Positions 35,401 through 52,121 of a stretch of 64,000 nucleotides of DNA are shown piece after piece. The DNA is taken from NCBI GenBank assembly GCA_016490735.1, contig JAEMWC010001464.1:18501-82500 (forward strand). Reading direction: 5' to 3'. Position numbers and translations under genes: made by a program. Position 1 is the first letter of the stretch, and each line of letters opens with the position of its first letter. Source of the stretch: Pachyseris speciosa (lineage: Eukaryota; Cnidaria; Anthozoa; Scleractinia; Pachyseridae). The notes under the pieces were generated by a model. It was not told the origin of the DNA, made no database searches, and was given only the letters and a program-made list of their open reading frames with translations.

Positions 35401-35956
35401 ATCAGAACCACCAAAAACCAGAAGACGATATAGACACGTTAAGTAGTGTTCATAACTGCGATGATCATTAGCATGTTCATTCTTTAATCCGCAGTTGAAA
35501 TATATGATTTTTATATATTCATTCTCACTTGTATCTTCATAGGTTCAAGTAGATGATATGGAGGACACTGTAGACGCGTTGAACCAAGAGTTCGCACAGC
35601 TGTCCAGGCAATCTTTAGAGATCACCACAAACCTACGTGAGCTTAAGCAAGAACTGCTAGCTCAAACAGACCTCCTCAGGGAGTCAGCGGAGGGCAGCAC
35701 GGAGCATGCGCAACACAAGAATGCGGTCCGTGAAACCACCACCAAGATTACGACCGCAAAGGCTTCGCTTGAGTCCACAGAGCTGCAAAAGAGCAACTGT
35801 TTAGGGCGGCTGAACCTGTTCAAGAAAAGACTGGAGGAAAAACAAGCTCAGTTAGAACAGCACGCGAGCAAACCAGAGAGCGAGAGAAAACAGCAAGCAG
35901 AGAGAAAACTGCAGTCCGCCATGGGCAAATCAGCAAAGAAGAAAGCAAAGAAGTAA
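6290..35956 (+). CDS. Large membrane coiled-coil protein gene, 5' part missing
   Basis: A multi-exon gene whose 5' exons are not found in the window. Visible parts, in order: Cys-rich repeats with CPxGYY/CPxGHYS patterns (GCC2/GCC3, TNFR-like fold), one transmembrane helix, a Pro-rich juxtamembrane stretch, a very long charged coiled coil, a Pro-rich linker, a conserved globular domain, and a final coiled coil with a Lys-rich tail. Taking one copy of the duplicated block, the exons from the membrane segment to the stop sum to 5019 bp, exactly 1673 codons, with all phases matching. The ectodomain visible here adds about 280 residues. It is probably a type I membrane protein with its coiled coil in the cytoplasm. 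The exon phases are strong evidence of coding. I do not recognise the orthologue. Known issues are the 8.28-kb tandem duplication, two apparent single-base losses in ectodomain exons, and one phase mismatch before the membrane exon. Confidence 0.8.
7569..7765 (+). CDS. Ectodomain exon with apparent 1-base loss
   Basis: After acceptor GGTCATAG the frame reads GFFCPTGT, then CPSGYF and CTPCPAG, typical of the same Cys-rich repeats. It hits TGA at about 7680 in the context GGTTGAAGTAC. With one more G there the frame would continue through the next Cys-rich stretch (GPCDAGFYCSGRAYTS) to donor GTAAGT. The exon is 197 bp; one extra base would give 66 whole codons and keep phase 0. It is either a sequence error or a real frameshift. 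Confidence 0.65.
7953..8122. repeat. MITE-like repeat holding the duplication breakpoint
   Basis: The ends look like inverted repeats: TTACATTAAAACCCCCTC on the left and AATAGGGGTTGAACTGTA on the right. The 5' edge of the 8.28-kb duplication (7965) lies in the run of five Cs inside the left end. The copy at 16243-16400 lacks the first 12 bases because the junction lies there. Confidence 0.5.
8250..10592 (+). CDS. Ectodomain exons, copy 1 (three exons)
   Basis: Exons 8250-8401, 9123-9290 and 10454-10592. The first reads GGLCPQGEYCPQGAKTPEPC and ends in phase 2 at donor GTAGGC. The second begins by completing Gly, then YYCAGDTNPEPTGPYSPGHY. The third reads AEQCTNCTEKNFCDEMGLEF and ends at PTACPPL in phase 1. 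These are GCC2/GCC3-like Cys-rich repeats continuing the ectodomain. In the second exon the usual CPVGTYQ motif is out of frame (TGCCCGTCGGAACTTATCAG), as if one base were missing in the C run at about 9270; with it the exon would end in phase 0 and join the third. The third exon's phase 1 end does not match the phase 0 start of the membrane exon. Confidence 0.7.
8931..9050 (+). repeat. SINE 3' fragment with perfect hairpin
   Basis: A 23-bp perfect inverted repeat (8931-8953 / 8977-8999; one arm is AAGCAGCAGTGAAAATAAAG plus CCT) is followed by TAAGTAGTGTTCACAACTAC. The same tail is seen at 34770-34860, 34950-34993 and 35443-35533, so this is the 3' half of an interspersed SINE family. The second copy is at about 17209-17328. 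Confidence 0.65.
9592..10060 (-). mobile_element. 5'-truncated non-LTR retrotransposon (LINE)
   Basis: The minus strand encodes the C-terminal end of a non-LTR reverse-transcriptase protein. It has the pattern FKCMAGMAPEYLS, then RSQQLNIPLFKTKKGQQSF, WNNLPAEIK and FKRNLRKYLLKRL, ending at the stop at 9711. The short 3' UTR carries CTGAAAAGCCCCCATGGGG and ends in TTGTATTGTA repeats at 9592-9625. The 5' side is cut off near a (CA)n run at 10050-10072. The identical copy is at about 17868-18330. Confidence 0.8.
10700..11074 (+). repeat. Retroelement 3' end with expanded TATTG tail
   Basis: The sequence CCCTGAAAAGCCCCGATGGG at 10942-10961 is followed by 18 exact TATTG units (10981-11070). The hairpin-like AAGCCCC..GGGG and the TATTG tail are the same signals as in the minus-strand LINE 3' end at 9592-9660. 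This is probably a SINE or truncated LINE using the same 3' recognition end. The second copy (18975-19363) has 21 units. Confidence 0.7.
11139..11325 (+). CDS. Transmembrane exon, copy 1
   Basis: After acceptor AAAAACAG the frame reads PLNLKPDW, then a hydrophobic helix of about 25 residues (IWGMTVFMLVCIIMLVIAVI to IW). The stop-transfer sequence RPRSIGRYPIRALRPKY follows, then a Pro-rich stretch (APIPVVPIP). This orientation puts the Cys-rich part outside and the coiled coil inside the cell. Donor GTGAGT follows in phase 1. Other open frames here, including a 173-codon one on the minus strand, are shadows. Confidence 0.85.
11706..12004 (+). CDS. Juxtamembrane cytoplasmic exon, copy 1
   Basis: The exon completes the Gly codon left open by the membrane exon and reads IDDHVYDLGPRGSPEG, then a region predicted to be helical (FNVRTLYDKLEDQTLHVSSQ, LRAFYDRISQQAEKLKGML). 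It is 299 bp and ends in phase 0 at donor GTAAGA. It begins the cytoplasmic coiled coil. Confidence 0.85.
12005..12270. repeat. GACA/GACG/GGAC tetranucleotide-like minisatellite
   Basis: About 240 bp of loosely periodic GACAGACA, GGACGGAC and GAACGGAC words lie directly after an exon donor. The opposite-strand frame rich in Ser-Val-Cys-Pro is a repeat artefact. The same tract occurs at 20294-20559. Confidence 0.85.
12514..12556 (+). CDS. Short coiled-coil exon, copy 1, alternative 3' end possible
   Basis: The exon starts after TTGAATTGCAG and reads TSSEERQESGEGEA, ending at donor GTAAGA in phase 1; this fits exon 13988 exactly. The same frame stays open past this donor with coding-like sequence (REQELMASLQMLLEKVEKGQ) to about 12690. 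A longer alternative exon is therefore possible, but I cannot fix its 3' end. Confidence 0.7.
12557..13503. other. Intron sequence, copy 1
   Basis: After the possible exon extension to about 12690 the sequence holds a poly-G run (12888-12902) and no convincing coding region. An open frame at 13249-13506 has no ATG and no domain. Confidence 0.5.
13504..13975. repeat. Interspersed repeat with tRNA-like end
   Basis: It contains GGGGACTACGTCCCCTACTC, then GTGCGTGGCTTCTTTAACG and a TTATCC-GAGGAGACTAGAAAG block. Its right end, read on the minus strand, has a B-box-like GCGGGTTCAAACAC. A related stretch is at 29520-29670. It looks like a SINE or composite repeat ending close to an exon acceptor. 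Confidence 0.55.
13988..14265 (+). CDS. Coiled-coil exon, copy 1 (Gly-rich start)
   Basis: Acceptor CTTGTAG. The exon completes Gly and reads LVSGTNITLPGSSMLVVGGG, a Gly-rich low-complexity stretch, then the helical VSEFLRKMNAERMHLEQQMG and EETAVHKLLKEQ. It is 278 bp and ends in phase 0 at GTGAGG. Confidence 0.85.
14720..14959 (+). CDS. Coiled-coil exon, copy 1
   Basis: Eighty codons, phase 0/0, between CCTGTTAG and GTACAG. It contains LADKLSAGDLSEDEMKAIMD, then HDREVAQLEGVLAAQKDKQM and LRDKLRRRREEKEAALLRKQ. The plan H-x3-(E/D)-x-A-x-L...MAAL..KL..RR..K returns in later exons (28085, 31569), so the coiled coil is built of related segments. Confidence 0.88.
15041..15319. mobile_element. 279-bp MITE with GTTTTCAATTG ends
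   Basis: Terminal inverted repeats GCAGTTTTCAATTG and CAATTGAAAACCGC bound a body with CCAATCA and GCGCGGGAAAACGCGCG words. The same family occurs at 28358-28636 in the other orientation, and at about 23331-23609 in the duplicate. Target duplication not resolved. Confidence 0.6.
15637..15834 (+). CDS. Coiled-coil exon, copy 1
   Basis: Sixty-six codons, phase 0/0, after TTCAAAAG. It starts AEKSNIRLDDVPPLVSAEVI and has a helical second half (ARAEEQLSNEQADTYRRQMG). Donor GTAAGC. Confidence 0.85.
16044..16253 (+). pseudogene. Coiled-coil exon truncated by the duplication junction
   Basis: This matches the full exon at 24334-24537 (LEEKMSRELAQQRAQQTALL, KEKLAQRKKEQMRK) up to 16242. The sequence then jumps to the start of copy 2. 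The last 4 exon bases and the splice donor are lost, and the frame runs into Pro-Ser-stop at 16251-16253. If used, this copy would end the protein here. Confidence 0.85.
16528..24537 (+). CDS. Ectodomain to coiled-coil exons, copy 2 (ten exons)
   Basis: Second copies of the exons: 16528-16679, 17399-17566, 18729-18867 (ectodomain), 19428-19614 (membrane), 19995-20293, 20803-20845, 22278-22555, 23010-23249, 23927-24124 and 24334-24537. The last is intact here: 68 codons, phase 0/0, donor GTAAAA after LEKAK. I see no coding difference from copy 1, and the apparent single-base loss near the CPVGTYQ motif is present in both. Because phases are identical, an mRNA using exons from either copy and joining exon 24334 to 24962 would keep the frame. 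Confidence 0.8.
17868..18330 (-). mobile_element. LINE 3' end, duplicate copy
   Basis: Copy of the 9592-10060 fragment carried by the segmental duplication. The reverse-transcriptase C-terminal frame ends at 17987. Confidence 0.8.
18975..19363 (+). repeat. TATTG-tailed retroelement end, duplicate copy
   Basis: Copy of 10700-11074, with 21 TATTG units (19255-19359) instead of 18. Confidence 0.7.
23331..23609. mobile_element. 279-bp MITE, duplicate copy
   Basis: Copy of 15041-15319 carried by the segmental duplication. Confidence 0.6.
24962..25138 (+). CDS. Coiled-coil exon
   Basis: First single-copy exon after the duplication: 59 codons, phase 0/0, acceptor CCCTTGCAG, donor GTGTGT. It reads ISEGGDVEALLKQHGQEIAA, LEASFDAEEARHTAEI, and repeats the HxxExAxLE pattern of exon 14720. 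Confidence 0.87.
25594..25716 (+). CDS. Coiled-coil exon
   Basis: Forty-one codons, phase 0/0, after TAATACAG. It reads DAVLQQQIMDQFRKDNEALQ and ends LEDTK at donor GTAACA. Confidence 0.85.
25841..26020 (+). CDS. Coiled-coil exon, Arg-rich
   Basis: Sixty codons, phase 0/0, after TTTTTCAG. An Arg/Glu-rich helix (AARRARRQEEARRQSEES) is followed by a less helical stretch (DADHVIVPEVIIPRE) that may break the coiled coil. Confidence 0.85.
26271..26498 (+). CDS. Coiled-coil exon
   Basis: Seventy-six codons, phase 0/0, after TCAATTGCAG. Highly charged helix: LRNEQERTLADMRERHEQDT, VELLEAEKERRLRELKDRHA, ending SPEEVQQ. Confidence 0.88.
26700..27650. repeat. Cluster of tRNA-derived SINEs, tandem and inverted
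   Basis: Two complete units and one cut unit lie in minus orientation (about 26700-27298). One plus-oriented unit (27299-27650) follows, so the cluster folds back on itself. Each unit has a tRNA-like head with an A box (TAGCTCAGTTGG), a B box (GGTTCAAACCC) and pairable acceptor arms (GGCTTCA / TGAAGTC). A hairpin near CCTGAATTTTTTTTCAGG and an AATTGCATAAATTGCG palindrome follow. Solo tail fragments occur elsewhere, as at 30177-30235. Confidence 0.8.
27468..27541 (+). repeat. tRNA-Thr(GGU)-like SINE head
   Basis: The sequence folds into acceptor, D and T arms of a tRNA, with GGT where the anticodon would be. The position before the anticodon is C instead of the invariant T, and the anticodon stem pairs poorly. 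I therefore call it a SINE head, not a working tRNA gene. Minus-strand equivalents lie at about 26784-26858 and 27026-27101. Confidence 0.6.
28085..28288 (+). CDS. Coiled-coil exon
   Basis: Sixty-eight codons, phase 0/0, after TTGTCTGCAG, donor GTGAGT. It reads LATHQQELDEIMEKMDTERQ, then RQNANLHQKLLERKKRKQDA. It is closely patterned like exon 31569 (H..DLAKLMNKMDADRMRMQ). Confidence 0.88.
28358..28636. mobile_element. MITE with GTTTTCAATTG ends
   Basis: Inverted ends GTTTTCAATTGAGT and ACTCAATTGAAAAC with about the same length as the copy at 15041-15319. It lies in an intron. Confidence 0.6.
29021..29101 (+). CDS. Small coiled-coil exon
   Basis: Twenty-seven codons, phase 0/0, between TTTCGTTAG and GTAAGA. 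It reads VKQAEKHAMIEGIRENGSEA, then FVIRK. Confidence 0.8.
29191..29480 (+). mobile_element. tRNA-derived SINE with (TTG)n tail
   Basis: The head at 29191-29263 has an A box (TTGGCGCAGTGG) and a perfect B box (GGGTTCGATTCC). The body is followed by a (TTG)n tail at about 29449-29479, then an A/T run and a C run (29496-29512). It looks complete and fairly young. Confidence 0.75.
29520..29670. repeat. Interspersed repeat fragment
   Basis: It shares GGGGACTACATCCGCTACTC, then GTGCGTGGGTTCTGTAAC and the TTATCCGAGA block with the repeat at 13504-13975. Confidence 0.5.
29686..30039 (+). CDS. Large coiled-coil exon
   Basis: 118 codons, phase 0/0, after ATCAATAG. Continuous charged heptads: LEKRHSQELKDLERMFQEER, ELKELEKQQLSPEELQQRRA, LDKKHAEQRKQIQHG. 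Donor GTTTGT. Confidence 0.88.
30490..30600 (+). repeat. tRNA-derived SINE fragment
   Basis: A-box-like GTAGCCCAGTGGCAGAGC and B-box-like ATAGGTTTGACTTT, followed by a hairpin CTCGGGATTTTTTCCGAG. Confidence 0.55.
30625..30841. mobile_element. Two tandem TTAA-flanked MITEs
   Basis: Two related units of about 100 bp (30625-30725 and 30740-30841) each begin and end with TTAA. The second has inverted ends TTAACCCTTTCACTCC and GGGGTTAAAGGGTTAA. Their bodies share AAGAGTGACTT and TTTTACTCGTCAAAGGGA. TTAA flanks point to the piggyBac superfamily; this is inference from target choice. Confidence 0.6.
30948..31110 (+). CDS. Coiled-coil exon
   Basis: 163 bp after CTCCCTTAG: EYADALNELTPEQAEEHRRS, then VVKQKLDEQRLENEEKLRQE. 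It ends in phase 1 at donor GTTTGT. Confidence 0.86.
31569..31912 (+). CDS. Coiled-coil exon
   Basis: 344 bp after TTCTTTAG, completing the codon left by the previous exon. It reads FEAEQQRKLEEELAVFDKQL, then EAILKEHSKDLAKLMNKMDA and SLEERLKKRRDAKRQAK. It carries the same segment pattern as exons 14720 and 28085. Phase 0 at donor GTAATG. Confidence 0.88.
31913..32504. other. Intron, nothing recognised
   Basis: No ORF, RNA gene or clear repeat is seen apart from an ATTTAAAT-containing AT-rich stretch near 32210-32250. Confidence 0.5.
32505..32835 (+). CDS. Coiled-coil to Pro-rich linker exon
   Basis: 331 bp after TCATTCAG. The end of the long coiled coil (NEEEKKEFEEKVQSERDRVQ) passes into a Pro-rich hinge (EAAPPPPPRGMPESYRLAAP), then a helical segment (LASLLLSSPLYQKIEGIKSL) and a Gly-rich stretch. 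It ends in phase 1 at GTAAGG. Confidence 0.88.
33321..34291 (+). CDS. Conserved C-terminal globular domain exon, family unknown
   Basis: A single 971-bp exon encodes the main globular domain of the cytoplasmic part. It begins APGEGYIDIKDDTLWGGDDE, continues with a hydrophobic core (FGSFIVDLLAVHCHHLPVTL), then NRILYVRAERMD and FVLVLVHCLSHIACGDL. A second half is predicted helical (VVEGLLDAKLLRGANKDGVH), and an Arg/Ser-rich tail ends YKTFLQ. The VHCLSHIACGD stretch recalls helix-embedded His motifs, but no complete HExxH or other catalytic set is seen, so I assign no activity. GC is higher than in the introns. Start phase and donor GTATGT fit both neighbours. Confidence 0.85.
34716..35533 (+). 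repeat. Two SINE copies, one split by a fold-back element
   Basis: SINE tails with B-box-like GGGCTCGATTCCCCG (34740) and GTGAGTTTGAATAC (34942), each followed by a hairpin near AAGCCTGTATTTTTTTCAGGCTTT. The tail continues as AAGTAGTGTTCATAACTGCG. The second copy is interrupted at its TTAA by the element at 34998-35438 and resumes at 35439. Confidence 0.7.
34998..35438. mobile_element. TTAA fold-back MITE (piggyBac-like)
   Basis: 441 bp made of two 199-bp inverted arms (34998-35196 and 35240-35438) around a 43-base loop. The ends are AGTGTCTATATCG and CGATATAGACACG. TTAA flanks both sides (34994-34997, 35439-35442). The uninterrupted SINE at about 34790 reads GCTTAAGTAGTG and shows the empty TTAA site. 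No ORF. Confidence 0.85.
35543..35956 (+). CDS. Terminal exon: coiled coil and Lys-rich tail
   Basis: 137 codons plus TAA, after TCTTCATAG, phase 0. It reads VDDMEDTVDALNQEFAQLSR, ITTNLRELKQELLAQTDLLR, and ends with MGKSAKKKAKK. No canonical AATAAA lies within 150 bp; ATTAAA occurs near 36476. Confidence 0.88.
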   Translation, partial: VQVDDMEDTVDALNQEFAQLSRQSLEITTNLRELKQELLAQTDLLRESAEGSTEHAQHKNAVRETTTKITTAKASLESTELQKSNCLGRLNLFKKRLEEKQAQLEQHASKPESERKQQAERKLQSAMGKSAKKKAKK

Positions 35957-37414
35957 ACATTTTGTAAAGTTTAGTTAGAATAGCGTAGGCTTAACGAGTT
36001 TTTATCGCTTTGTAGTTTTGTATTATTTATTTGCATTGATTGCAACAAGATATTTAATGAACAAGACTGAAAAAGGAAGTCATTTACAATACTTATTTTT
36101 GCAGTATTTTTGTATAACGGAGACAGTAGCCATAGTAAGTTATGCGCCTGATGTAGAATTTCAAGGCGGTTAAATGATAATTTTTAACACTTTTCAAGCA
36201 TAATAATGAGCTTGCTGAGAAAAAGTCGTGTGAACCTTACATTATTTGCGTACATTTTTATTCGATTGAACTAATTAAGGAGATCCATTAGCGTTTAAGC
36301 AATTTGCAATTTAATGTGAAATCAATAACGTTCACCAAAATGTAAAATAGTTTCGTGGAAATTAAGTATTTCTGACGTGGTACAGTAGTAGTAGTCTATT
36401 TGCAGGAACGAGTCAAGGTGGACTTGTTTTTACTCTAAATATCAGGTGTAATAATTTTTTCATTCCATAGCTTCTATTAAAAAGTATTTTAGTAAAGAAA
36501 GATATGGTGTCATTTTTGACCTGTTGAAAGAGCTCAAGAAATGTCTCGGGCGCAAATCACTTGTGAAAGTTTCATCATATTTAACCACTTATAAAAACTT
36601 CAATTTGCCGAATGACGATCATCCCGTGTAATGCTCAAAACTTTGACATTTTTTGGGCTTTCATTTTAAGAGCATTTGGTGCGTATTGAAAGTCGAAACT
36701 CTTTTGGTGCTCAACGGCTAACTTAAATTTTTGCTAAAAAAAAAAAAAAAAGGGTCCTCCCCGTTGAATAGCCACGCTCGAGAGCACAAATACCAGAAAC
36801 ACCACCCTCGAACAAGCCCCTGGTAACTAGTTACACGGCGAAGAATATATTTAAAAAAAAAAGAATATTTTACAAAATTTAATATTTCCGGAGGCAGCCT
36901 CTCTTCGTCAGAGTGTTACAAATTATGACCTTAAAGCAAACAACGTTACAACTTGAAATAAGTTGCATTTATGTGTAAACTAGACCGAAACCGTAAACAA
37001 TATAACGCAAAATAAAAACCGTTACAATATTAAAATTAAAAAAAATACATAAGTGTTCCATGAAAACAGGAAGAAAGGTATTACATTGCCTCTATTCTAC
37101 CGAAGGGTTTACGAGTTTTACCTCTAGCAATCAAAAATGAAATCCGCATCTGAACAACCCTTGAATTTGTTTTCTCAAATTCTAAGTGTGTATTCAATCA
37201 AGACTGAAATCTACAGGAAGTACATTTTAAACTACACGTATTAAAAGTTATTCATCAACTATTAACGGATGTTTATAAACATTCGTAAAAATCACCATGA
37301 TTTGTAGTTCCAGCTCACAATAAATTGCTTTTCAAGTTTTCAATGAAAGTAAAAAAAAGGTTTTGCTTGCAAAGCATAATCGTCAAAGTTTTTTTCAGGC
37401 CAGAGAGGAATAGA
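35957..37414. other. 3' UTR and spacer before the satellite array
   Basis: AT-rich sequence without an ORF. It includes the 3' UTR of the coiled-coil gene. At 36883-36911, read on the minus strand, CTGACGA...GGAAATA around a GAGG/CCTC stem resembles a hammerhead-ribozyme core as found in Penelope-like retroelements. This is only a weak resemblance. Confidence 0.5.
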
Positions 37415-40400
37415 ACTCATAAATGAATCTAACGGCAACCACATCTGGACGGAATAGAGTCAATCCAGAGCTTATTCTTTACTCATAAATGAATATAGCG
37501 GCAGCCACATCTGGACGGAATAGAGTCAATCCAGAGCTTATTCTTTACTCATAAATGAATCTAGCGGCAGCCACATCTGGACGGAATAGAGTCAATCCAG
37601 AGCTTATTCTTTACTCATAAATGAATCTAGCGGCAGCCACATCTGGACGGAATAGAGTCAATCCAGAGCTTATTCTTTACTCATAAATGAATCTAGCGGC
37701 AGCCACATCTGGACGGAATAGAGTCAATCCAGAGCTTATTCTTTACTCATAAATGAATCTAGCGGCAGCCACATCTGGACGGAATAGAGTCAATCCAGAG
37801 CTTATTCTTTACTCATAAATGAATCTAGCGGCAGCCACATCTGGACGGAATAGAGTCAATCCAGAGCTTATTCTTTACTCATAAATGAATCTAGCGGCAG
37901 CCACATCTGGACGGAATAGAGTCAATCCAGAGCTTATTCTTTACTCATAAATGAATCTAGCGGCAGCCACATCTGGACGGAATAGAGTCAATCCAGAGCT
38001 TATTCTTTACTCATAAATGAATCTAGCGGCAGCCACATCTGGACGGAATAGAGTCAATCCAGAGCTTATTCTTTACTCATAAATGAATCTAGCGGCAGCC
38101 ACATCTGGACGGAATAGAGTCAATCCAGAGCTTATTCTTTACTCATAAATGAATCTAGCGGCAGCCACATCTGGACGGAATAGAGTCAATCCAGAGCTTA
38201 TTCTTTACTCATAAATGAATCTAGCGGCAGCCACATCTGGACGGAATAGAGTCAATCCAGAGCTTATTCTTTACTCATAAATGAATCTAGCGGCAGCCAC
38301 ATCTGGACGGAATAGAGTCAATCCAGAGCTTATTCTTTACTCATAAATGAATCTAGCGGCAGCCACATCTGGACGGAATAGAGTCAATCCAGAGCTTATT
38401 CTTTACTCATAAATGAATCTAGCGGCAGCCACATCTGGACGGAATAGAGTCAATCCAGAGCTTATTCTTTACTCATAAATGAATCTAGCGGCAGCCACAT
38501 CTGGACGGAATAGAGTCAATCCAGAGCTTATTCTTTACTCATAAATGAATCTAGCGGCAGCCACATCTGGACGGAATAGAGTCAATCCAGAGCTTATTCT
38601 TTACTCATAAATGAATCTAGCGGCAGCCACATCTGGACGGAATAGAGTCAATCCAGAGCTTATTCTTTACTCATAAATGAATCTAGCGGCAGCCACATCT
38701 GGACGGAATAGAGTCAATCCAGAGCTTATTCTTTACTCATAAATGAATCTAGCGGCAGCCACATCTGGACGGAATAGAGTCAATCCAGAGCTTATTCTTT
38801 ACTCATAAATGAATCTAGCGGCAGCCACATCTGGACGGAATAGAGTCAATCCAGAGCTTATTCTTTACTCATAAATGAATCTAGCGGCAGCCACATCTGG
38901 ATGGAATAGAGTCAATCCAGAGCTTATTCTTTACTCATAAATGAATCTAGCGGCAGCCACATCTGGACGGAATAGAGTCAATCCAGAGCTTATTCTTTAC
39001 TCATAAATGAATCTAGCGGCAGCCACATCTGGACGGAATAGAGTCAATCCAGAGCTTATTCTTTACTCATAAATGAATCTAGCGGCAGCCACATCTGGAC
39101 GGAATAGAGTCAATCCAGAGCTTATTCTTTACTCATAAATGAATCTAGCGGCAGCCACATCTGGACGGAATAGAGTCAATCCAGAGCTTATTCTTTACTC
39201 ATAAATGAATCTAGCGGCAGCCACATCTGGACGGAATAGAGTCAATCCAGAGCTTATTCTTTACTCATAAATGAATCTAGCGGCAGCCACATCTGGACGG
39301 AATAGAGTCAATCCAGAGCTTATTCTTTACTCATAAATGAATCTAGCGGCAGCCACATCTGGACGGAATAGAGTCAATCCAGAGCTTATTCTTTACTCAT
39401 AAATGAATCTAGCGGCAGCCACATCTGGATGGAATAGAGTCAATCCAGAGCTTATTCTTTACTCATAAATGAATCTAGCGGCAGCCACATCTGGACGGAA
39501 TAGAGTCAATCCAGAGCTTATTCTTTACTCATAAATGAATCTAGCGGCAGCCACATCTGGACGGAATAGAGTCAATCCAGAGCTTATTCTTTACTCATAA
39601 ATGAATCTAGCGGCAGCAACATCTGGACGGAATAGAGTCAATCCAGAGCTTATTCTTTACTCATAAATGAATCTAGCGGCAGCCACATCTGGACGGAATA
39701 GAGTCAATCCAGAGCTTATTCTTTACTCATAAATGAATCTAGCGGCAGCCACATCTGGACGGAATAGAGTCATTCCAGAGCTTATTCTTTACTCATAAAT
39801 GAATCTAGCGGCAGCCACATCTGGACGGAATAGAGTCAATCCAGAGCTTATTCTTTACTCATAAATGAATCTAGCGGCAGCCACATCTGGACGGAATAGA
39901 GTCAATCCAGAGCTTATTCTTTACTCATAAATGAATCTAGCGGCAGCCACATCTGGACGGAATAGAGTCAATCCAGAGCTTATTCTTTACTCATAAATGA
40001 ATCTAGCGGCAGCCACATCTGGACGGAATAGAGTCAATCCAGAGCTTATTCTTTACTCATAAATGAATCTAGCGGCAGCCACATCTGGACGGAATAGAGT
40101 CAATCCAGAGCTTATTCTTTACTCATAAATGAATCTAGCGGCAGCCACATCTGGACGGAATAGAGTCAATCCAGAGCTTATTCTTTACTCATAAATGAAT
40201 CTAGCGGCAGCCACATCTGGACGGAATAGAGTCAATCCAGAGCTTATTCTTTACTCATAAATGAATCTAGCGGCAGCCACATCTGGACGGAATAGAGTCA
40301 ATCCAGAGCTTATTCTTTACTCATAAATGAATCTAGCGGCAGCCACATCTGGACGGAATAGAGTCAATCCAGAGCTTATTCTTTACTCATAAATGAATCT

Positions 40401-43400
40401 AGCGGCAGCCACATCTGGATGGAATAGAGTCAATCCAGAGCTTATTCTTTACTCATAAATGAATCTAGCGGCAGCCACATCTGGACGGAATAGAGTCAAT
40501 CCAGAGCTTATTCTTTACTCATAAATGAATCTAGCGGCAGCCACATCTGGACGGAATAGAGTCAATCCAGAGCTTATTCTTTACTCATAAATGAATCTAG
40601 CGGCAGCCACATCTGGATGGAATAGAGTCAATCCAGAGCTTATTCTTTACTCATAAATGAATCTAGCGGCAGCCACATCTGGACGGAATAGAGTCAATCC
40701 AGAGCTTATTCTTTACTCATAAATGAATCTAGCGGCAGCCACATCTGGACGGAATAGAGTCATTCCAGAGCTTATTCTTCACTCATAAATGAATCTAGCG
40801 GCAGCCACATCTGGACGGAATAGAGTCAATCCAGAGCTTATTCTTTACTCATAAATGAATCTAGCGGCAGCCACATCTGGACGGAATAGAGTCAATCCAG
40901 AGCTTATTCTTTACTCATAAATGAATCTAGCGGCAGCCACATCTGGACGGAATAGAGTCATTCCAGAGCTTATTCTTTACTCATAAATGAATCTAGCGGC
41001 AGCCACATCTGGACGGAATAGAGTCAATCCAGAGCTTATTCTTTACTCATAAATGAATCTAGCGGCAGCCACATCTGGACGGAATAGAGTCAATCCAGAG
41101 CTTATTCTTTACTCATAAATGAATCTAGCGGCAGCCACATCTGGACGGAATAGAGTCAATCCAGAGCTTATTCTTTACTCATAAATGAATCTAGCGGCAG
41201 CCACATCTGGACGGAATAGAGTCAATCCAGAGCTTATTCTTTACTCATAAATGAATCTAGCGGCAGCCACATCTGGACGGAATAGAGTCAATCCAGAGCT
41301 TATTCTTTACTCATAAATGAATCTAGCGGCAGCCACATCTGGACGGAATAGAGTCAATCCAGAGCTTATTCTTTACTCATAAATGAATCTAGCGGCAGCC
41401 ACATCTGGACGGAATAGAGTCAATCCAGAGCTTATTCTTTACTCATAAATGAATCTAGCGGCAGCCACATCTGGATGGAATAGAGTCAATCCAGAGCTTA
41501 TTCTTTACTCATAAATGAATCTAGCGGCAGCCACATCTGGACGGAATAGAGTCAATCCAGAGCTTATTCTTTACTCATAAATGAATCTAGCGGCAGCCAC
41601 ATCTGGACGGAATAGAGTCATTCCAGAGCTTATTCTTTACTCATAAATGAATCTAGCGGCAGCCACATCTGGATGGAATAGAGTCAATCCAGAGCTTATT
41701 CTTTACTCATAAATGAATCTAGCGGCAGCCACATCTGGACGGAATAGAGTCAATCCAGAGCTTATTCTTTACTCATAAATGAATCTAGCGGCAGCCACAT
41801 CTGGACGGAATAGAGTCATTCCAGAGCTTATTCTTTACTCATAAATGAATCTAGCGGCAGCCACATCTGGACGGAATAGAGTCAATCCAGAGCTTATTCT
41901 TTACTCATAAATGAATCTAGCGGCAGCCACATCTGGACGGAATAGAGTCAATCCAGAGCTTATTCTTTACTCATAAATGAATCTAGCGGCAGCCACATCT
42001 GGACGGAATAGAGTCAATCCAGAGCTTATTCTTTACTCATAAATGAATCTAGCGGCAGCCACATCTGGACGGAATAGAGTCAATCCAGAGCTTATTCTTT
42101 ACTCATAAATGAATCTAGCGGCAGCCACATCTGGACGGAATAGAGTCAATCCAGAGCTTATTCTTTACTCATAAATGAATCTAGCGGCAGCCACATCTGG
42201 ACGGAATAGAGTCAATCCAGAGCTTATTCTTTACTCATAAATGAATCTAGCGGCAGCCACATCTGGATGGAATAGAGTCAATCCAGAGCTTATTCTTTAC
42301 TCATAAATGAATCTAGCGGCAGCCACATCTGGACGGAATAGAGTCAATCCAGAGCTTATTCTTTACTCATAAATGAATCTAGCGGCAGCCACATCTGGAC
42401 GGAATAGAGTCAATCCAGAGCTTATTCTTTACTCATAAATGAATCTAGCGGCAGCCACATCTGGACGGAATAGAGTCAATCCAGAGCTTATTCTTTACTC
42501 ATAAATGAATCTAGCGGCAGCCACATCTGGACGGAATAGAGTCAATCCAGAGCTTATTCTTTACTCATAAATGAATCTAGCGGCAGCCACATCTGGACGG
42601 AATAGAGTCAATCCAGAGCTTATTCTTTACTCATAAATGAATCTAGCGGCAGCCACATCTGGACGGAATAGAGTCAATCCAGAGCTTATTCTTTACTCAT
42701 AAATGAATCTAGCGGCAGCCACATCTGGACGGAATAGAGTCAATCCAGAGCTTATTCTTTACTCATAAATGAATCTAGCGGCAGCCACATCTGGACGGAA
42801 TAGAGTCAATCCAGAGCTTATTCTTTACTCATAAATGAATCTAGCGGCAGCCACATCTGGACGGAATAGAGTCAATCCAGAGCTTATTCTTTACTCATAA
42901 ATGAATCTAGCGGCAGCCACATCTGGACGGAATAGAGTCAATCCAGAGCTTATTCTTTACTCATAAATGAATCTAGCGGCAGCCACATCTGGACGGAATA
43001 GAGTCAATCCAGAGCTTATTCTTTACTCATAAATGAATCTAGCGGCAGCCACATCTGGACGGAATAGAGTCAATCCAGAGCTTATTCTTTACTCATAAAT
43101 GAATCTAGCGGCAGCCACATCTGGACGGAATAGAGTCAATCCAGAGCTTATTCTTTACTCATAAATGAATCTAGCGGCAGCCACATCTGGACGGAATAGA
43201 GTCAATCCAGAGCTTATTCTTTACTCATAAATGAATCTAGCGGCAGCCACATCTGGACGGAATAGAGTCAATCCAGAGCTTATTCTTTACTCATAAATGA
43301 ATCTAGCGGCAGCCACATCTGGACGGAATAGAGTCAATCCAGAGCTTATTCTTTACTCATAAATGAATCTAGCGGCAGCCACATCTGGACGGAATAGAGT

Positions 43401-46400
43401 CAATCCAGAGCTTATTCTTTACTCATAAATGAATCTAGCGGCAGCCACATCTGGACGGAATAGAGTCAATCCAGAGCTTATTCTTTACTCATAAATGAAT
43501 CTAGCGGCAGCCACATCTGGACGGAATAGAGTCAATCCAGAGCTTATTCTTTACTCATAAATGAATCTAGCGGCAGCCACATCTGGACGGAATAGAGTCA
43601 ATCCAGAGCTTATTCTTTACTCATAAATGAATCTAGCGGCAGCCACATCTGGACGGAATAGAGTCAATCCAGAGCTTATTCTTTACTCATAAATGAATCT
43701 AGCGGCAGCCACATCTGGACGGAATAGAGTCAATCCAGAGCTTATTCTTTACTCATAAATGAATCTAGCGGCAGCCACATCTGGACGGAATAGAGTCAAT
43801 CCAGAGCTTATTCTTTACTCATAAATGAATCTAGCGGCAGCCACATCTGGACGGAATAGAGTCAATCCAGAGCTTATTCTTTACTCATAAATGAATCTAG
43901 CGGCAGCCACATCTGGACGGAATAGAGTCAATCCAGAGCTTATTCTTTACTCATAAATGAATCTAGCGGCAGCCACATCTGGACGGAATAGAGTCAATCC
44001 AGAGCTTATTCTTTACTCATAAATGAATCTAGCGGCAGCCACATCTGGACGGAATAGAGTCAATCCAGAGCTTATTCTTTACTCATAAATGAATCTAGCG
44101 GCAGCCACATCTGGACGGAATAGAGTCAATCCAGAGCTTATTCTTTACTCATAAATGAATCTAGCGGCAGCCACATCTGGATGGAATAGAGTCAATCCAG
44201 AGCTTATTCTTTACTCATAAATGAATCTAGCGGCAGCCACATCTGGACGGAATAGAGTCAATCCAGAGCTTATTCTTTACTCATAAATGAATCTAGCGGC
44301 AGCCACATCTGGACGGAATAGAGTCAATCCAGAGCTTATTCTTTACTCATAAATGAATCTAGCGGCAGCCACATCTGGACGGAATAGAGTCAATCCAGAG
44401 CTTATTCTTTACTCATAAATGAATCTAGCGGCAGCCACATCTGGACGGAATAGAGTCAATCCAGAGCTTATTCTTTACTCATAAATGAATCTAGCGGCAG
44501 CCACATCTGGACGGAATAGAGTCAATCCAGAGCTTATTCTTTACTCATAAATGAATCTAGCGGCAGCCACATCTGGACGGAATAGAGTCAATCCAGAGCT
44601 TATTCTTTACTCATAAATGAATCTAGCGGCAGCCACATCTGGACGGAATAGAGTCAATCCAGAGCTTATTCTTTACTCATAAATGAATCTAGCGGCAGCC
44701 ACATCTGGACGGAATAGAGTCAATCCAGAGCTTATTCTTTACTCATAAATGAATCTAGCGGCAGCCACATCTGGACGGAATAGAGTCAATCCAGAGCTTA
44801 TTCTTTACTCATAAATGAATCTAGCGGCAGCCACATCTGGACGGAATAGAGTCAATCCAGAGCTTATTCTTTACTCATAAATGAATCTAGCGGCAGCCAC
44901 ATCTGGACGGAATAGAGTCAATCCAGAGCTTATTCTTTACTCATAAATGAATCTAGCGGCAGCCACATCTGGACGGAATAGAGTCAATCCAGAGCTTATT
45001 CTTTACTCATAAATGAATCTAGCGGCAGCCACATCTGGACGGAATAGAGTCAATCCAGAGCTTATTCTTTACTCATAAATGAATCTAGCGGCAGCCACAT
45101 CTGGACGGAATAGAGTCAATCCAGAGCTTATTCTTTACTCATAAATGAATCTAGCGGCAGCCACATCTGGACGGAATAGAGTCAATCCAGAGCTTATTCT
45201 TTACTCATAAATGAATCTAGCGGCAGCCACATCTGGACGGAATAGAGTCAATCCAGAGCTTATTCTTTACTCATAAATGAATCTAGCGGCAGCCACATCT
45301 GGACGGAATAGAGTCAATCCAGAGCTTATTCTTTACTCATAAATGAATCTAGCGGCAGCCACATCTGGACGGAATAGAGTCAATCCAGAGCTTATTCTTT
45401 ACTCATAAATGAATCTAGCGGCAGCCACATCTGGACGGAATAGAGTCAATCCAGAGCTTATTCTTTACTCATAAATGAATCTAGCGGCAGCCACATCTGG
45501 ACGGAATAGAGTCAATCCAGAGCTTATTCTTTACTCATAAATGAATCTAGCGGCAGCCACATCTGGACGGAATAGAGTCAATCCAGAGCTTATTCTTTAC
45601 TCATAAATGAATCTAGCGGCAGCCACATCTGGACGGAATAGAGTCAATCCAGAGCTTATTCTTTACTCATAAATGAATCTAGCGGCAGCCACATCTGGAC
45701 GGAATAGAGTCAATCCAGAGCTTATTCTTTACTCATAAATGAATCTAGCGGCAGCCACATCTGGACGGAATAGAGTCAATCCAGAGCTTATTCTTTACTC
45801 ATAAATGAATCTAGCGGCAGCCACATCTGGACGGAATAGAGTCAATCCAGAGCTTATTCTTTACTCATAAATGAATCTAGCGGCAGCCACATCTGGACGG
45901 AATAGAGTCAATCCAGAGCTTATTCTTTACTCATAAATGAATCTAGCGGCAGCCACATCTGGACGGAATAGAGTCAATCCAGAGCTTATTCTTTACTCAT
46001 AAATGAATCTAGCGGCAGCCACATCTGGACGGAATAGAGTCAATCCAGAGCTTATTCTTTACTCATAAATGAATCTAGCGGCAGCCACATCTGGACGGAA
46101 TAGAGTCAATCCAGAGCTTATTCTTTACTCATAAATGAATCTAGCGGCAGCCACATCTGGACGGAATAGAGTCAATCCAGAGCTTATTCTTTACTCATAA
46201 ATGAATCTAGCGGCAGCCACATCTGGACGGAATAGAGTCAATCCAGAGCTTATTCTTTACTCATAAATGAATCTAGCGGCAGCCACATCTGGATGGAATA
46301 GAGTCAATCCAGAGCTTATTCTTTACTCATAAATGAATCTAGCGGCAGCCACATCTGGATGGAATAGAGTCAATCCAGAGCTTATTCTTTACTCATAAAT

Positions 46401-49400
46401 GAATCTAGCGGCAGCCACATCTGGACGGAATAGAGTCAATCCAGAGCTTATTCTTTACTCATAAATGAATCTAGCGGCAGCCACATCTGGACGGAATAGA
46501 GTCAATCCAGAGCTTATTCTTTACTCATAAATGAATCTAGCGGCAGCCACATCTGGACGGAATAGAGTCAATCCAGAGCTTATTCTTTACTCATAAATGA
46601 ATCTAGCGGCAGCCACATCTGGATGGAATAGAGTCAATCCAGAGCTTATTCTTTACTCATAAATGAATCTAGCGGCAGCCACATCTGGACGGAATAGAGT
46701 CAATCCAGAGCTTATTCTTTACTCATAAATGAATCTAGCGGCAGCCACATCTGGACGGAATAGAGTCAATCCAGAGCTTATTCTTTACTCATAAATGAAT
46801 CTAGCGGCAGCCACATCTGGACGGAATAGAGTCAATCCAGAGCTTATTCTTTACTCATAAATGAATCTAGCGGCAGCCACATCTGGACGGAATAGAGTCA
46901 ATCCAGAGCTTATTCTTTACTCATAAATGAATCTAGCGGCAGCCACATCTGGACGGAATAGAGTCAATCCAGAGCTTATTCTTTACTCATAAATGAATCT
47001 AGCGGCAGCCACATCTGGACGGAATAGAGTCAATCCAGAGCTTATTCTTTACTCATAAATGAATCTAGCGGCAGCCACATCTGGACGGAATAGAGTCAAT
47101 CCAGAGCTTATTCTTTACTCATAAATGAATCTAGCGGCAGCCACATCTGGACGGAATAGAGTCAATCCAGAGCTTATTCTTTACTCATAAATGAATCTAG
47201 CGGCAGCCACATCTGGACGGAATAGAGTCAATCCAGAGCTTATTCTTTACTCATAAATGAATCTAGCGGCAGCCACATCTGGATGGAATAGAGTCAATCC
47301 AGAGCTTATTCTTTACTCATAAATGAATCTAGCGGCAGCCACATCTGGACGGAATAGAGTCAATCCAGAGCTTATTCTTTACTCATAAATGAATCTAGCG
47401 GCAGCCACATCTGGATGGAATAGAGTCAATCCAGAGCTTATTCTTTACTCATAAATGAATCTAGCGGCAGCCACATCTGGATGGAATAGAGTCAATCCAG
47501 AGCTTATTCTTTACTCATAAATGAATCTAGCGGCAGCCACATCTGGACGGAATAGAGTCAATCCAGAGCTTATTCTTTACTCATAAATGAATCTAGCGGC
47601 AGCCACATCTGGACGGAATAGAGTCATCCAGAGCTTATTCTTTACTCATAAATGAATCTAGCGGCAGCCACATCTGGACGGAATAGAGTCAATCCAGAGC
47701 TTATTCTTTACTCATAAATGAATCTAGCGGCAGCCACATCTGGACGGAATAGAGTCAATCCAGAGCTTATTCTTTACTCATAAATGAATCTAGCGGCAGC
47801 CACATCTGGACGGAATAGAGTCATTCCAGAGCTTATTCTTTACTCATAAATGAATCTAGCGGCAGCCACATCTGGACGGAATAGAGTCAATCCAGAGCTT
47901 ATTCTTTACTCATAAATGAATCTAGCGGCAGCCACATCTGGACGGAATAGAGTCAATCCAGAGCTTATTCTTTACTCATAAATGAATCTAGCGGCAGCCA
48001 CATCTGGACGGAATAGAGTCAATCCAGAGCTTATTCTTTACTCATAAATGAATCTAGCGGCAGCCACATCTGGACGGAATAGAGTCAATCCAGAGCTTAT
48101 TCTTTACTCATAAATGAATCTAGCGGCAGCCACATCTGGACGGAATAGAGTCAATCCAGAGCTTATTCTTTACTCATAAATGAATCTAGCGGCAGCCACA
48201 TCTGGACGGAATAGAGTCAATCCAGAGCTTATTCTTTACTCATAAATGAATCTAGCGGCAGCCACATCTGGACGGAATAGAGTCAATCCAGAGCTTATTC
48301 TTTACTCATAAATGAATCTAGCGGCAGCCAAATCTTGACGGAATAGAGTCAATCCAGAGCTTATTCTTTACTCATAAATGAATCTAGCGGCAGCCAAATC
48401 TTGACGGAATAGAGTCAATCCAGAGCTTATTCTTTACTCATAAATGAATCTAGCGGCAGCCACATCTGGACGGAATAGAGTCAATCCAGAGCTTATTCTT
48501 TACTCATAAATGAATCTAGCGGCAGCCACATCTGGACGGAATAGAGTCATCCAGAGCTTATTCTTTACTCATAAATGAATCTAGCGGCAGCCACATCTGG
48601 ACGGAATAGAGTCAATCCAGAGCTTATTCTTTACTCATAAATGAATCTAGCGGCAGCCACATCTGGACGGAATAGAGTCAATCCAGAGCTTATTCTTTAC
48701 TCATAAATGAATCTAGCGGCAGCCACATCTGGACGGAATAGAGTCAATCCAGAGCTTATTCTTTACTCATAAATGAATCTAGCGGCAGCCACATCTGGAC
48801 GGAATAGAGTCAATCCAGAGCTTATTCTTTACTCATAAATGAATTAGCGGCAGCCACATCTGGACGGAATAGAGTCAATCCAGAGCTTATTCTTTACTCA
48901 TAAATGAATCTAGCGGCAGCCACATCTGGACGGAATAGAGTCAATCCAGAGCTTATTCTTTACTCATAAATGAATCTAGCGGCAGCCACATCTGGACGGA
49001 ATAGAGTCAATCCAGAGCTTATTCTTTACTCATAAATGAATCTAGCGGCAGCCACATCTGGACGGAATAGAGTCAATCCAGAGCTTATTCTTTACTCATA
49101 AATGAATCTAGCGGCAGCCACATCTGGACGGAATAGAGTCAATCCAGAGCTTATTCTTTACTCATAAATGAATCTAGCGGCAGCCACATCTGGATGGAAT
49201 AGAGTCAATCCAGAGCTTATTCTTTACTCATAAATGAATCTAGCGGCAGCCACATCTGGACGGAATAGAGTCATTGCAGAGCTTATTCTTTACTCATAAA
49301 TGAATCTAGCGGCAGCCACATCTGGACGGAATAGAGTCAGTCCAGAGCATATTCTTTACTCATAAATGAATCTAGCGGCAGCCACATCTGGACGGAATAG

Positions 49401-50153
49401 AGTCAATCCAGAGCTTATTCTTTACTCATAAATGAATCTAGCGGCAGCCACATCTGGACGGAATAGAGTCAATCCAGAGCTTATTCTTTACTCATAAATG
49501 AATCTAGCGGCAGCCACATCTGGACGGAATAGAGTCAATCCAGAGCTTATTCTTTACTCATAAATGAATCTAGCGGCAGCCACATCTGGACGGAATAGAG
49601 TCAATCCAGAGCTTATTCTTTACTCATAAATGAATCTAGCGGCAGCCACATCTGGATGGAATAGAGTCAATCCAGAGCTTATTCTTTACTCATAAATGAA
49701 TCTAGCGGCAGCCACATCTGGACGGAATAGAGTCAATCCGGAGCTTATTCTTTACTCATAAATGAATCTAGCGGCAGCCACATCTGGACGGAATAGAGTC
49801 AATCCAGAGCTTATTCTTTACTCATAAATGAATCTAGCGGCAGCCACATCTGGATGGAATAGAGTCAATCCAGAGCTTATTCTTTACTCATAAATGAATC
49901 TAGCGGCAGCCACATCTGGACGGAATAGAGTCATTCCAGAGCTTATTCTTTACTCATAAATGAATCTAGCGGCAGCCACATCTGGACGGAATAGAGTCAA
50001 TCCAGAGCTTATTCTTTACTCATAAATGAATCTAGCGGCAGCCACATCTGGATGGAATAGAGTCAATCCAGAGCTTATTCTTTACTCATAAATGAATCTA
50101 GCGGCAGCCACATCTGGACGGAATAGAGTCAATCCAGAGCTTATTCTTTACTC
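37415..50153. repeat. 66-bp satellite array, about 193 copies
   Basis: An uninterrupted head-to-tail array of a 66-bp unit (plus strand: ACTCATAAATGAATCTAGCG, then GCAGCCACATCTGGACGGAA, TAGAGTCAATCCAGAGCTTA, TTCTTT). 12,739 bp divided by 66 is almost exactly 193. Most units are identical. Recurrent variants are GGACGG to GGATGG and GTCAATCC to GTCATTCC; rare 1-bp deletions occur near 47625, 48549 and 48845, and AATCTTG variants near 48330. The leftmost unit is the most diverged (CTAACGGCAACC). On the minus strand each unit encodes the last residues and stop of the ligand gene at 50098-52121. There are no spacers, so it is not a CRISPR array. Confidence 0.97.
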
Positions 50154-52121
50154 CCTTTTTCGATACCAAGACAACCCGCAAGCTCGTGTATTCCACAGGA
50201 ACACAGCAGACCGTCTTAAACTTTTTCTTTTGGTCTTCGGAGATTGGAACGTCATTTAGGTTGGCGAGTTGACGTATCAGCACGTCGTAAGTGACGTAGG
50301 TGTTATCTCTGGCGTCCAGACTGTAGGGACTGTCACATGACCCAGCGCAATGGGCGAACCTTATAGGGCTCCTGGGTGATGTGATGAAGTGTTCCATTCG
50401 CACCAAGGAGAAATTGGCAGGGAAAGAATGGAGCCGACAGTGTGAGTGAGCTGCTGCATACTTAAGATGCGTCAAGTTCAGCAGCGGATCTTCGTGGTCC
50501 TTGTGATGGATTTCGTCTGCTGGCGGATCTTCGTGGTTCTTGAGATGGACTTTGTCTTCTGCTTAAAGAAAAATGTTATTATAGCAATACCCTGTTAAAT
50601 TTCTAGTAAAGTACTATTGGATAAAACACCCTATATAAAAACTGAAAGAAAAGTTTGAAACATTTTGCAATCATGTTGGGGTAAACTACATTAATCGAGT
50701 GAAAAATGCGTAACGGGAAAGACTATCCCGTCCTGGGCGAAATGAAGAACAGATAGTAGTCCTCATAATCAAATCTCATGGAAACGTAGTTTCCCTACGC
50801 AGGGCTCCGTTACAGTGCAGGAGCGGAGAACTGGAAACGAATAATATGTTTTTGTGCTTTGTTCCTTCAAGTTTAAGTGCTTAATTTACCACTATACTAT
50901 TGCAATGTTTGATTCACTTTAAATGGCTGTTAATCCTTTGAAGTATCATTCTTACAACATTTCTTCATAAGGTCGCCCTTTTATCGATAGTCGCTGCTTG
51001 TTTGGCGCTCCGCCACACACGAGCATTAGCCACAGCTGTTTAACCTTCCCCAAAAATCCCATTTAAAAGACGTCTAAACTACATTGACAAAAAAAATTAT
51101 ATAACATTTTGAGCTTTAAGCTTTATTTCACAACTGGTGCATGACTATCAAAATATAATGGCGTTAATTTTTTTAAAGTGAAAGTAATAAGCAAAGGACC
51201 GCCAACGATAATGCTGTAAGTTGACGTAGGATCTACAAGAGATCTAATCAGCCAAAAAATAAATCGGAATATACATGTAACAAGCAAGGCTGATACTACG
51301 AGAGAAAAGTTGTCTTTGCAAGACACCAACATGACCGAGACTCGATAAAGTAGGGCTGCAACCATAGACAGCCGTTTCCTCCTTATTGCGACTCGTCGAC
51401 ATGGTGTAGCAGATTTAAAAAACGCCAACTTCAATGCGAGCGCCAATAAATTGCACTATGAACCCGTTCACGATATCAAGTTCCGTACCTTGGACTCTCT
51501 TGCCATCCAAGCCAGGCGTTGCCACACCACGTAGCCCGGATAGCAAGGAATCCAAGTGTCACGATGGCGTCTCGCAAAGAAAAATGTAGATTGGCCACTA
51601 CCAATTAAAACGCATGGACAAAACCATGCTAAAAAATACACAGCATATTGGATCTGTAAAAGATCTACGGTCCAAAAATACGAGAGAGTGAAAGTAATAA
51701 GCAAAGGATCGCCAACGATAATGCTATAAGTTAACGTAGGATCTACAAGAGATCTAATCAGCCAAAAAATAAATCGGAATATACATGCAACAAGCAAGGC
51801 TGATCCTACGTTAACTTACTGCGCTTAGAGCAACCGGTAAAAAATGAACCATCTGACCTTTTGCTTCTGAACAATTTACAACACAAAAAAGGAAGATATT
51901 TGAAAGACGAAAATTGAGCAAACTTGAAAAATAAAACGATTTCCTTCCTTTGCTATTGATGCGTTTCAAGACAATTGAATTGAATTGGTTGAATTCTAAT
52001 CGAAGGAAAACTTGAACTGATTACCTTGCTGCGTTGGGTGCGGTAGAGTAGGTGACACCAAGGGCGCAGCTTCGCAACAACCGAAAAGAAACAAAATCAT
52101 CAAAATTTTTGCATTTCTCAT
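50098..52121 (-). CDS. Secreted TGF-beta-superfamily cystine-knot ligand (GDNF-like spacing)
   Basis: Two exons: 52121-52025 (ATG to donor GTAATC, phase 1) and 50558-50098 (acceptor TTTAAGCAG). They join in frame to about 185 residues. The N-terminus is a classical signal peptide (MRNAKILMILFLFGCCEA). A short linker follows, with a 39-bp internal duplication giving HEDP twice and an N-glycosylation site NLT. The C-terminal domain has the seven-Cys pattern C-x29-C-x3-C-x42-CC-x30-C-x-C, with HCAGSC, CCVPVEY and a final CGCR-stop. FITSP before HCAGSC resembles the WIxAP of BMP-type ligands; TYDVLIRQL and the CGC end also resemble GDNF. No RXXR furin site and almost no prodomain are seen, which is unusual. 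The last 17 codons and the stop lie inside the first unit of the 66-bp array. Expected role: extracellular dimeric signal for a receptor kinase, inferred from the fold. Confidence 0.75.
50559..52024 (-). other. Intron of the ligand gene with a 122-bp direct repeat
   Basis: Nearly identical segments at 51179-51300 and 51688-51810 (about 509 bp apart) lie in open minus-strand frames predicting hydrophobic helices (FRFIFWLIRSLVDPTSTYSI). The frames have no assured start and no family I recognise. They could be remnants of a multi-pass membrane protein or a repeat. Confidence 0.5.

Follow-up and report, generated by a model that had tools for sequence, protein, structure and literature searches.

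The locus and its repeat array

The stretch of DNA analysed here, hereafter the window, comprises 64,000 nucleotides of the genome of the scleractinian Pachyseris speciosa (assembly GCA_016490735.1, contig JAEMWC010001464.1, positions 18,501 to 82,500). Its minus strand carries the last exon of a TGF-beta superfamily ligand gene and, directly downstream, a 12.7-kb tandem array of a 66-bp unit that corresponds to the end of that same exon. The features of the locus are as follows, where UTR stands for untranslated region.

50098..50561, minus strand: last coding exon of the TGF-beta superfamily ligand, with the cystine-knot domain; its probable 5' boundary follows from the reading frame and a putative AG acceptor near 50560-50564
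50484..50561, minus strand: a second in-frame coding repeat, two 39-bp (13-aa, ADEVHLKDHEDP-like) copies directly before the cystine knot
50150..50153, minus strand: GAGT bordering the array towards the gene, the same four letters with which the consensus unit ends; a possible microhomology of the first duplication
50098..50100, minus strand: TAG stop codon of the TGF-beta reading frame, inside the gene-proximal unit
50084..50149, minus strand: gene-proximal unit, the true coding-exon end (codons, stop and first 14 nt of the 3'UTR)
37415..50153, minus strand: 66-bp tandem array of 193 units, from Tandem Repeats Finder (TRF) and our own segmentation
35401..37414, minus strand: 3' flank of the gene past the array, 96-98% identical at four homologous loci
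36878..36883, minus strand: first poly(A)-signal-like hexamer (ATTAAA) past the array, 531 nt beyond it

Analysis of the host gene covered its last exon. The minus-strand open reading frame (ORF) at 50098-50475, which ends in VKNKLWIDSIPSRCGCR (also given as SKKGVKNKLWIDSIPSRCGCR) and a stop codon, matches the Pfam family PF00019 (TGF_beta) over the full 104-position profile (E-value 7.6e-13, 49.6 bits against a cut-off of 27), and the gene is thus assigned, by its cystine knot, to the TGF-beta superfamily ligands. The best PDB sequence matches of the ORF are mature BMP/GDF ligands, such as GDF2 (3.9e-05) and BMP2 (7.5e-05), and a GDNF-type ligand was rejected on the basis of these Pfam and PDB matches. 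The 39-bp exon repeat is a second variable number tandem repeat (VNTR) of this gene family; A genes (the type to which the window's gene belongs) have two copies and some paralogs have more, with 13 blast copies in C1388_144k (locus L053).

On the gene strand, each unit of the array consists of the third base of a Val codon, 16 codons (KNKLWIDSIPSRCGCR), the stop codon TAG and 14 nt of 3'UTR (ATTCATTTATGAGT). TRF described positions 37415-50153 as a repeat of period 66 with 193.1 copies, 99% matches, 0% indels and a score of 25184, and segmentation gave 193 units, of which 190 are 66 bp and three are 65 bp. These results bear out the sequence-only reading of the window, which had described about 193 uninterrupted repeats directly downstream of the gene and had placed the final 17 residues and stop codon of the ligand, including the CGCR end, in the rightmost unit; the ORF at 50098-50475 and the unit at 50084-50149 agree on the latter point. 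The array is uninterrupted and highly uniform: edits average 0.22 per unit, 157 of the 193 units match the consensus exactly, and up to 31 identical units follow one another. Variants are rarest in the middle, where two bins hold one variant unit in 24.

The same reading had called the array a satellite, a term that is not borne out in the centromeric sense. Classical satellites are very long arrays over heterochromatin that are independent of any single gene family, and the arrays described here, of which the longest is 12.7 kb, are tied to one gene family. The repeat runs head to tail with a unit of 66 bp (193.1 copies), within the 10-100 bp of minisatellites, and unit number differs across nine homologous contigs (1, 1, 1, 21, 28, 31, 40, 41 and 193), among which alleles are not separated from segmental copies. 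Because of its unit size and its confinement to one gene family, the array is therefore classed as a large minisatellite/VNTR.

Distribution of the unit in the genome

A search of the whole 984-Mb assembly with a unit-unit junction pattern, in which two mismatches were allowed, gave 382 junctions (94 forward and 288 reverse), while the reversed control pattern gave none. The search returned total counts, with individual places for the first matches. Counted separately over the 33 loci collected for this study, the junctions again numbered 382, with the same division between strands (94 and 288), and lay in 11 arrays. All 11 arrays, which range from 2 to 193 units, are situated at the ends and stop codons of TGF-beta exons. 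A 201-base query of unit plus exon found matches confined to the same contigs, in a search that scores the best candidates only. In neither search was a copy of the unit found outside TGF-beta loci that could represent an older, unrelated source.

In addition, the six homologous proteins found in other sources all terminate in CGCR at the corresponding position. The gene is thus the likely source of the unit. The sequence-only reading had reached the same conclusion and is supported by it: the 382 junctions of the assembly equal the count in TGF-beta arrays in total and by strand, the genome search that it had proposed uncovered further arrays at TGF-beta paralogs and no unrelated older copies, and a homologous ligand with a C-terminus unlike the unit, which it had named as grounds for abandoning the idea, was not encountered among the six.

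The 33 loci lie on 12 contigs, and 32 of them have enough exon for a tree; C393_322k, with a 74-base exon match, was left out. Nine loci are of type A, defined by flanks, position and a common neighbouring gene, seven are of type B, and 16 are of other types (C and X). The B loci are united in the exon tree with 100/99 support, and their 5' flank is about 70% identical to that of A. The nine A loci, on nine contigs, hold 193, 31, 41, 40, 21, 28, 1, 1 and 1 units. Arrays are present at four of the seven B loci, three of which have 4, 11 and 5 full A-type units followed by a native end, and the fourth one full unit and a truncated one. Among the 16 others a single locus, C393_44k, has an array (19 units and a native end). 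The remaining 21 loci contain at most one copy of the region, which is damaged in some (e.g. C237_964k, C1218_170k and C393_218k).

The neighbouring gene is common to ten contigs. On contig C1739 (L072, C1739:65501-71000) it is accompanied by part of the left flank, up to window position 36832, but the 5.5 kb examined contain no TGF-beta unit, and this locus may have undergone a deletion or rearrangement. A polyploid or many-haplotype assembly behind the ten homologous contigs is not supported, since the single-copy controls Tfb4 and fibrillarin are on one contig each, although two genes are few and haplotypes may contribute.

Foreign units inside paralogs

The repeated units of the four B arrays carry the stop and UTR of type A (TAG followed by ATTCATTTATGAGT). 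In three of these arrays the distal copy is B's own end, in which TAA or CAA is followed by AAAAGTGTCGG. The fourth, C1027_197k (L032, C1027:195955-199134), lacks the B 3'UTR, since its second unit is interrupted within the codons and gives way to other sequence. On the 5' side, all four flanks are 95-100% identical to other B loci and about 70% to A (72% for C393_299k), and the 3' flanks of three show 97-98% mutual identity over 901 nt and no match to A among the matches listed.

Two of the four B arrays were also compared, array-free, in 60-column windows. Identity to B and to B2 was 0.89-1.00 wherever both were comparable, with the exception of columns 900-960, where it was 0.17 to B, owing to a gap, and 0.98-1.00 to B2; columns 300-360 and 1200-1260 were not comparable, and columns 1260-1312, a ragged end with 0.16-0.18 to B and A2, were not used. 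Three B arrays, including the two scanned in this way, therefore have foreign units bordered at either end by the recipient's own sequence, the arrangement by which ectopic conversion is recognized. Over approximately the last 50 coding bases A and B hardly differ, and A-type units thus sit inside B genes with both breakpoints within this common stretch. Exact twins of the units of two B arrays are found in the C788_A array (7 of 11 for C1218_194k and 5 of 5 for C393_299k), more than in any other A array.

The array of C393_44k has a more complex context. On its 5' side the flank resembles type C (94% identity to C1464_120k over 410 nt). After the 19 A-type units and the last codons, 6 of 6 diagnostic sites are B-like, 68-99 nt past the last full unit, and from 112 nt on nearly all diagnostic sites are X-like. 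A 109-nt match to B includes the approximately 50 coding bases, and the B-like stretch of 3'UTR is shorter. C393_44k is thus a composite, a third gene type that may have been filled from a B array. The single-unit homologues, the A-unit arrays in paralogs and the recipient flanks around these arrays go beyond what had been read from the window, and the flanks show that the array moved between paralogs.

Proposed birth, growth and contraction of the array

One A locus, C393_A, has a single unit that reads TAA, ATTCATTTATGAGT and TTTTTCC, that is, a TAA stop with an A-type 3'UTR. The same TAA stop is present in those non-A single-unit paralogs that keep a stop, and C393_A looks like the state before duplication, with the ancestral stop. 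In most paralogs GAGT directly precedes the unit and recurs in the 3'UTR, and this 4-base microhomology may have served in the first duplication; in C393_A itself the gene-side tetranucleotide is GATT. The A-type UTR differs from the other types by loss of a GTGTCGGAAG stretch.

Growth can be followed in the window locus, C1464_A, and its sister C1218_A (96/94 support), which are 98.9% identical over 447 bases of exon and intron edge and hold 193 and 31 units, respectively. Mean edits per unit are 0.22 in the window array versus 0.79 to 1.88 in the other five A arrays, and a recent burst in the middle of the window copy is proposed.

The loci C1357_A, C1147_A and C1027_A form a clade with 100/96 support. 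In C1357_A, which has 28 units, the distal unit ends in TAGATTATTCC, without the unit end, and exactly this junction is found in C1147_A and C1027_A, each with a single unit. As full units could not arise again from a unit that lacks its end, the simplest history is that an array with a damaged distal unit contracted to one unit in two copies, and the shared scar implies that arrays can also shrink. Alternatively, C1357_A regained full units from another array.

Protein end and poly(A) signals

Each intact unit has an in-frame C-terminus and stop codon, so translation ends in the first unit, and gain or loss of units leaves the protein unchanged as long as the first unit is clean. Among the ten arrays with at least four full units (C1027_197k is not included), the first unit leaves the protein unchanged in nine, versus 80 of 383 other units with a protein-changing or frame-shifting difference, which weakly suggests constraint on the first unit. 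C1464_94k no longer has a stop at its native distal end (CGC CAA), and its TAG comes from the first A-type unit; the single-unit locus C878_31k has the same CAA. Three of the four array-bearing B exons (C1218_194k, C393_299k and C1027_197k) are broken by a frameshift, two of them also by an in-frame stop, and spread therefore needs no working gene. Neither AATAAA nor ATTAAA occurs inside the 12.7-kb window array. Of five single-unit loci checked, four (C1388_144k, C1464_120k, C393_A and C1147_A) have their first AATAAA 172 to 380 nt past the exon body, and none was found for C1357_84k within the stretch examined.

Proposed mechanism

The observations are probably best explained by a gene-born minisatellite that was seeded by tandem duplication, was resized and spread ectopically to paralogs, each unit restoring the C-terminus and stop. 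In a type A paralog, the 66 bp between two GAGT tetranucleotides, which cover the C-terminal 17 residues, the stop and 14 nt of 3'UTR, would have been duplicated in tandem by slippage or microhomology-mediated repair. From two copies on, unequal exchange or slippage would raise and lower unit number, and all units behind the first would be 3'UTR or downstream DNA. As other paralogs have identical or almost identical sequence over the approximately 50 coding bases of the unit, the array could serve as template for the repair of breaks there, or unit circles could be inserted by recombination. A-type units would in this way have been placed in B-type genes between recipient flanks, and later an array with a B-like end into a third gene type. 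Ectopic copying by repair (synthesis-dependent conversion) and insertion of unit circles would leave the same product. The default reading is that the array is a neutral passenger. More tentatively, and with rather less than even confidence, the unit may be viewed as a self-compatible passenger of the gene family that enters a paralog through shared codons, replaces the recipient's stop without harm to the protein and spreads by conversion like a homing sequence without its own enzyme.

Several points weigh against this account. C1027_197k has lost its B 3' flank, matching other B loci over 43 nt only, the exon windows separate A from B poorly, and the B-like tract in C393_44k is short. The direction from A to B is read from the UTR type and one single-unit A locus, C393_A, whose 3' flank is only 75% like that of the window over 443 nt. 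The exon tree splits the nine A loci into a group of five (100/97), a group of three (100/96) and C393_A apart. The single-unit B loci may have lost an array or may have lacked one from the start. For the clean first units of the eight arrays with an intact exon frame, the probability by chance is 0.073, a figure that leaves out C1218_194k (first unit L>F) and C393_299k, whose exons are frame-shifted. That 66 is divisible by 3 may be chance. Lastly, the 193-unit length and the separateness of the loci come from one assembly, in which alleles and recent segmental copies are not told apart.

Alternative explanations

The array could have been carried by unequal crossing-over between A and B loci, instead of conversion or circle insertion. 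Tandem arrays are natural sites of unequal exchange, and A and B loci lie approximately 14 to 31 kb apart on six shared contigs. A single crossover, however, would leave an A flank on one side and a B flank on the other, so that two crossovers are needed at the three of four B arrays with B flanks on both sides, and this route is considered unlikely.

It is also improbable that the array is selected, with its long repetitive 3'UTR or a noncoding RNA from it controlling the ligand mRNA. An array is present at six of nine A loci, and an mRNA ending at the first ATTAAA past the window array would indeed have a very long 3'UTR. However, unit number ranges from 1 to 193 at homologous loci, and arrays are also present in the genes with broken exons named above.

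In a third explanation, each paralog multiplied its own last codons, and the arrays are alike only because the C-terminus is conserved. The near identity of A and B over the last codons is in agreement with this, as is the number of exon-bearing loci with at least two units (11 of 32). However, the B-type ends AAAAGTGTCGGAAG or AAAAGTGTCGGAGG are found at all three B loci with a single unit, one of which is without the last codons, and in the distal copies of three B arrays, whereas all 40 full units of the five non-A arrays end in the A-type ATTCATTTATGAGT. Independent amplification was rejected on this evidence as very unlikely.

Least probable by a hair, a false tandem expansion or false contig duplication would suit a region unusual in having ten contigs with the same neighbouring gene, against one contig for each control gene, yet the eleven arrays, on eight contigs, are of different length, the ten compared unit by unit differ in their variants, and no N occurs within the nine A-locus stretches.

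Other features of the window

To the left of the array, positions 7961-16243 and 16239-24533 are two direct tandem copies of an 8.3-kb segment, with 99.7% identity over 8299 aligned bases; the predicted ORFs are repeated as well. To the right of the TGF-beta exon, TRF identified a 118-bp tandem repeat at 55627-56954 (11.2 copies, 92% matches). An ORF at 59657-60031 encodes a Myb/SANT-like DNA-binding domain (PF13873, 1.2e-17) and is perhaps, as a guess, part of a transposon.

Comparison with known systems and implications

Minisatellites and VNTRs in or beside genes are well known, both as coding VNTRs and as VNTRs of the 3'UTR. The arrays described here resemble them in unit size (10-100 bp), in variable copy number at homologous loci and in exon/UTR location. 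They differ in that the window-type unit spans the stop codon and the C-terminal end, so that copy number leaves the protein untouched, in the size of the largest array (193 units, 12.7 kb) and in the presence of arrays of one origin in several paralogs. Gene conversion among tandem paralogs places short tracts of one paralog inside another; here, by contrast, the transferred tract would be a repeat array, through which the recipients acquired between 1 and 19 additional full units of the region around the stop codon.

Satellites born from the ribosomal DNA spacer and from transposable elements are described in a review (PMC5615363). As in those cases, a genomic sequence would be the seed, followed by amplification and homogenization; unlike in those satellites, the seed here is a protein-coding exon end, its frame is still open and the copies stay at that gene family. 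In the sea urchin Sp185/333 immune gene family, GA and GAT short tandem repeats surround the genes (PMC5103432). Like the family described here, it is clustered and unstable and combines tandem repeats with segmental duplication, and gene conversion has been proposed for it, whereas the repeat here is made of the gene's own coding end and not of GA or GAT. No minisatellite spanning a stop codon and no satellite seeded by a gene end was noticed in titles and abstract openings among the literature matches listed, which does not show absence from print.

The seeding of tandem arrays is rarely seen directly, and here the seed exon is still open and an apparent pre-array locus with a single unit is present. 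In the same assembly, an apparent contraction scar and transfers to paralogs are readable nearly to the base, and the diagnostic piece of UTR distinguishes movement of an array between loci from independent amplification. The arrays also suggest a simple reason for the free growth of a stop-codon-spanning repeat, in that each unit restores the end of the protein.

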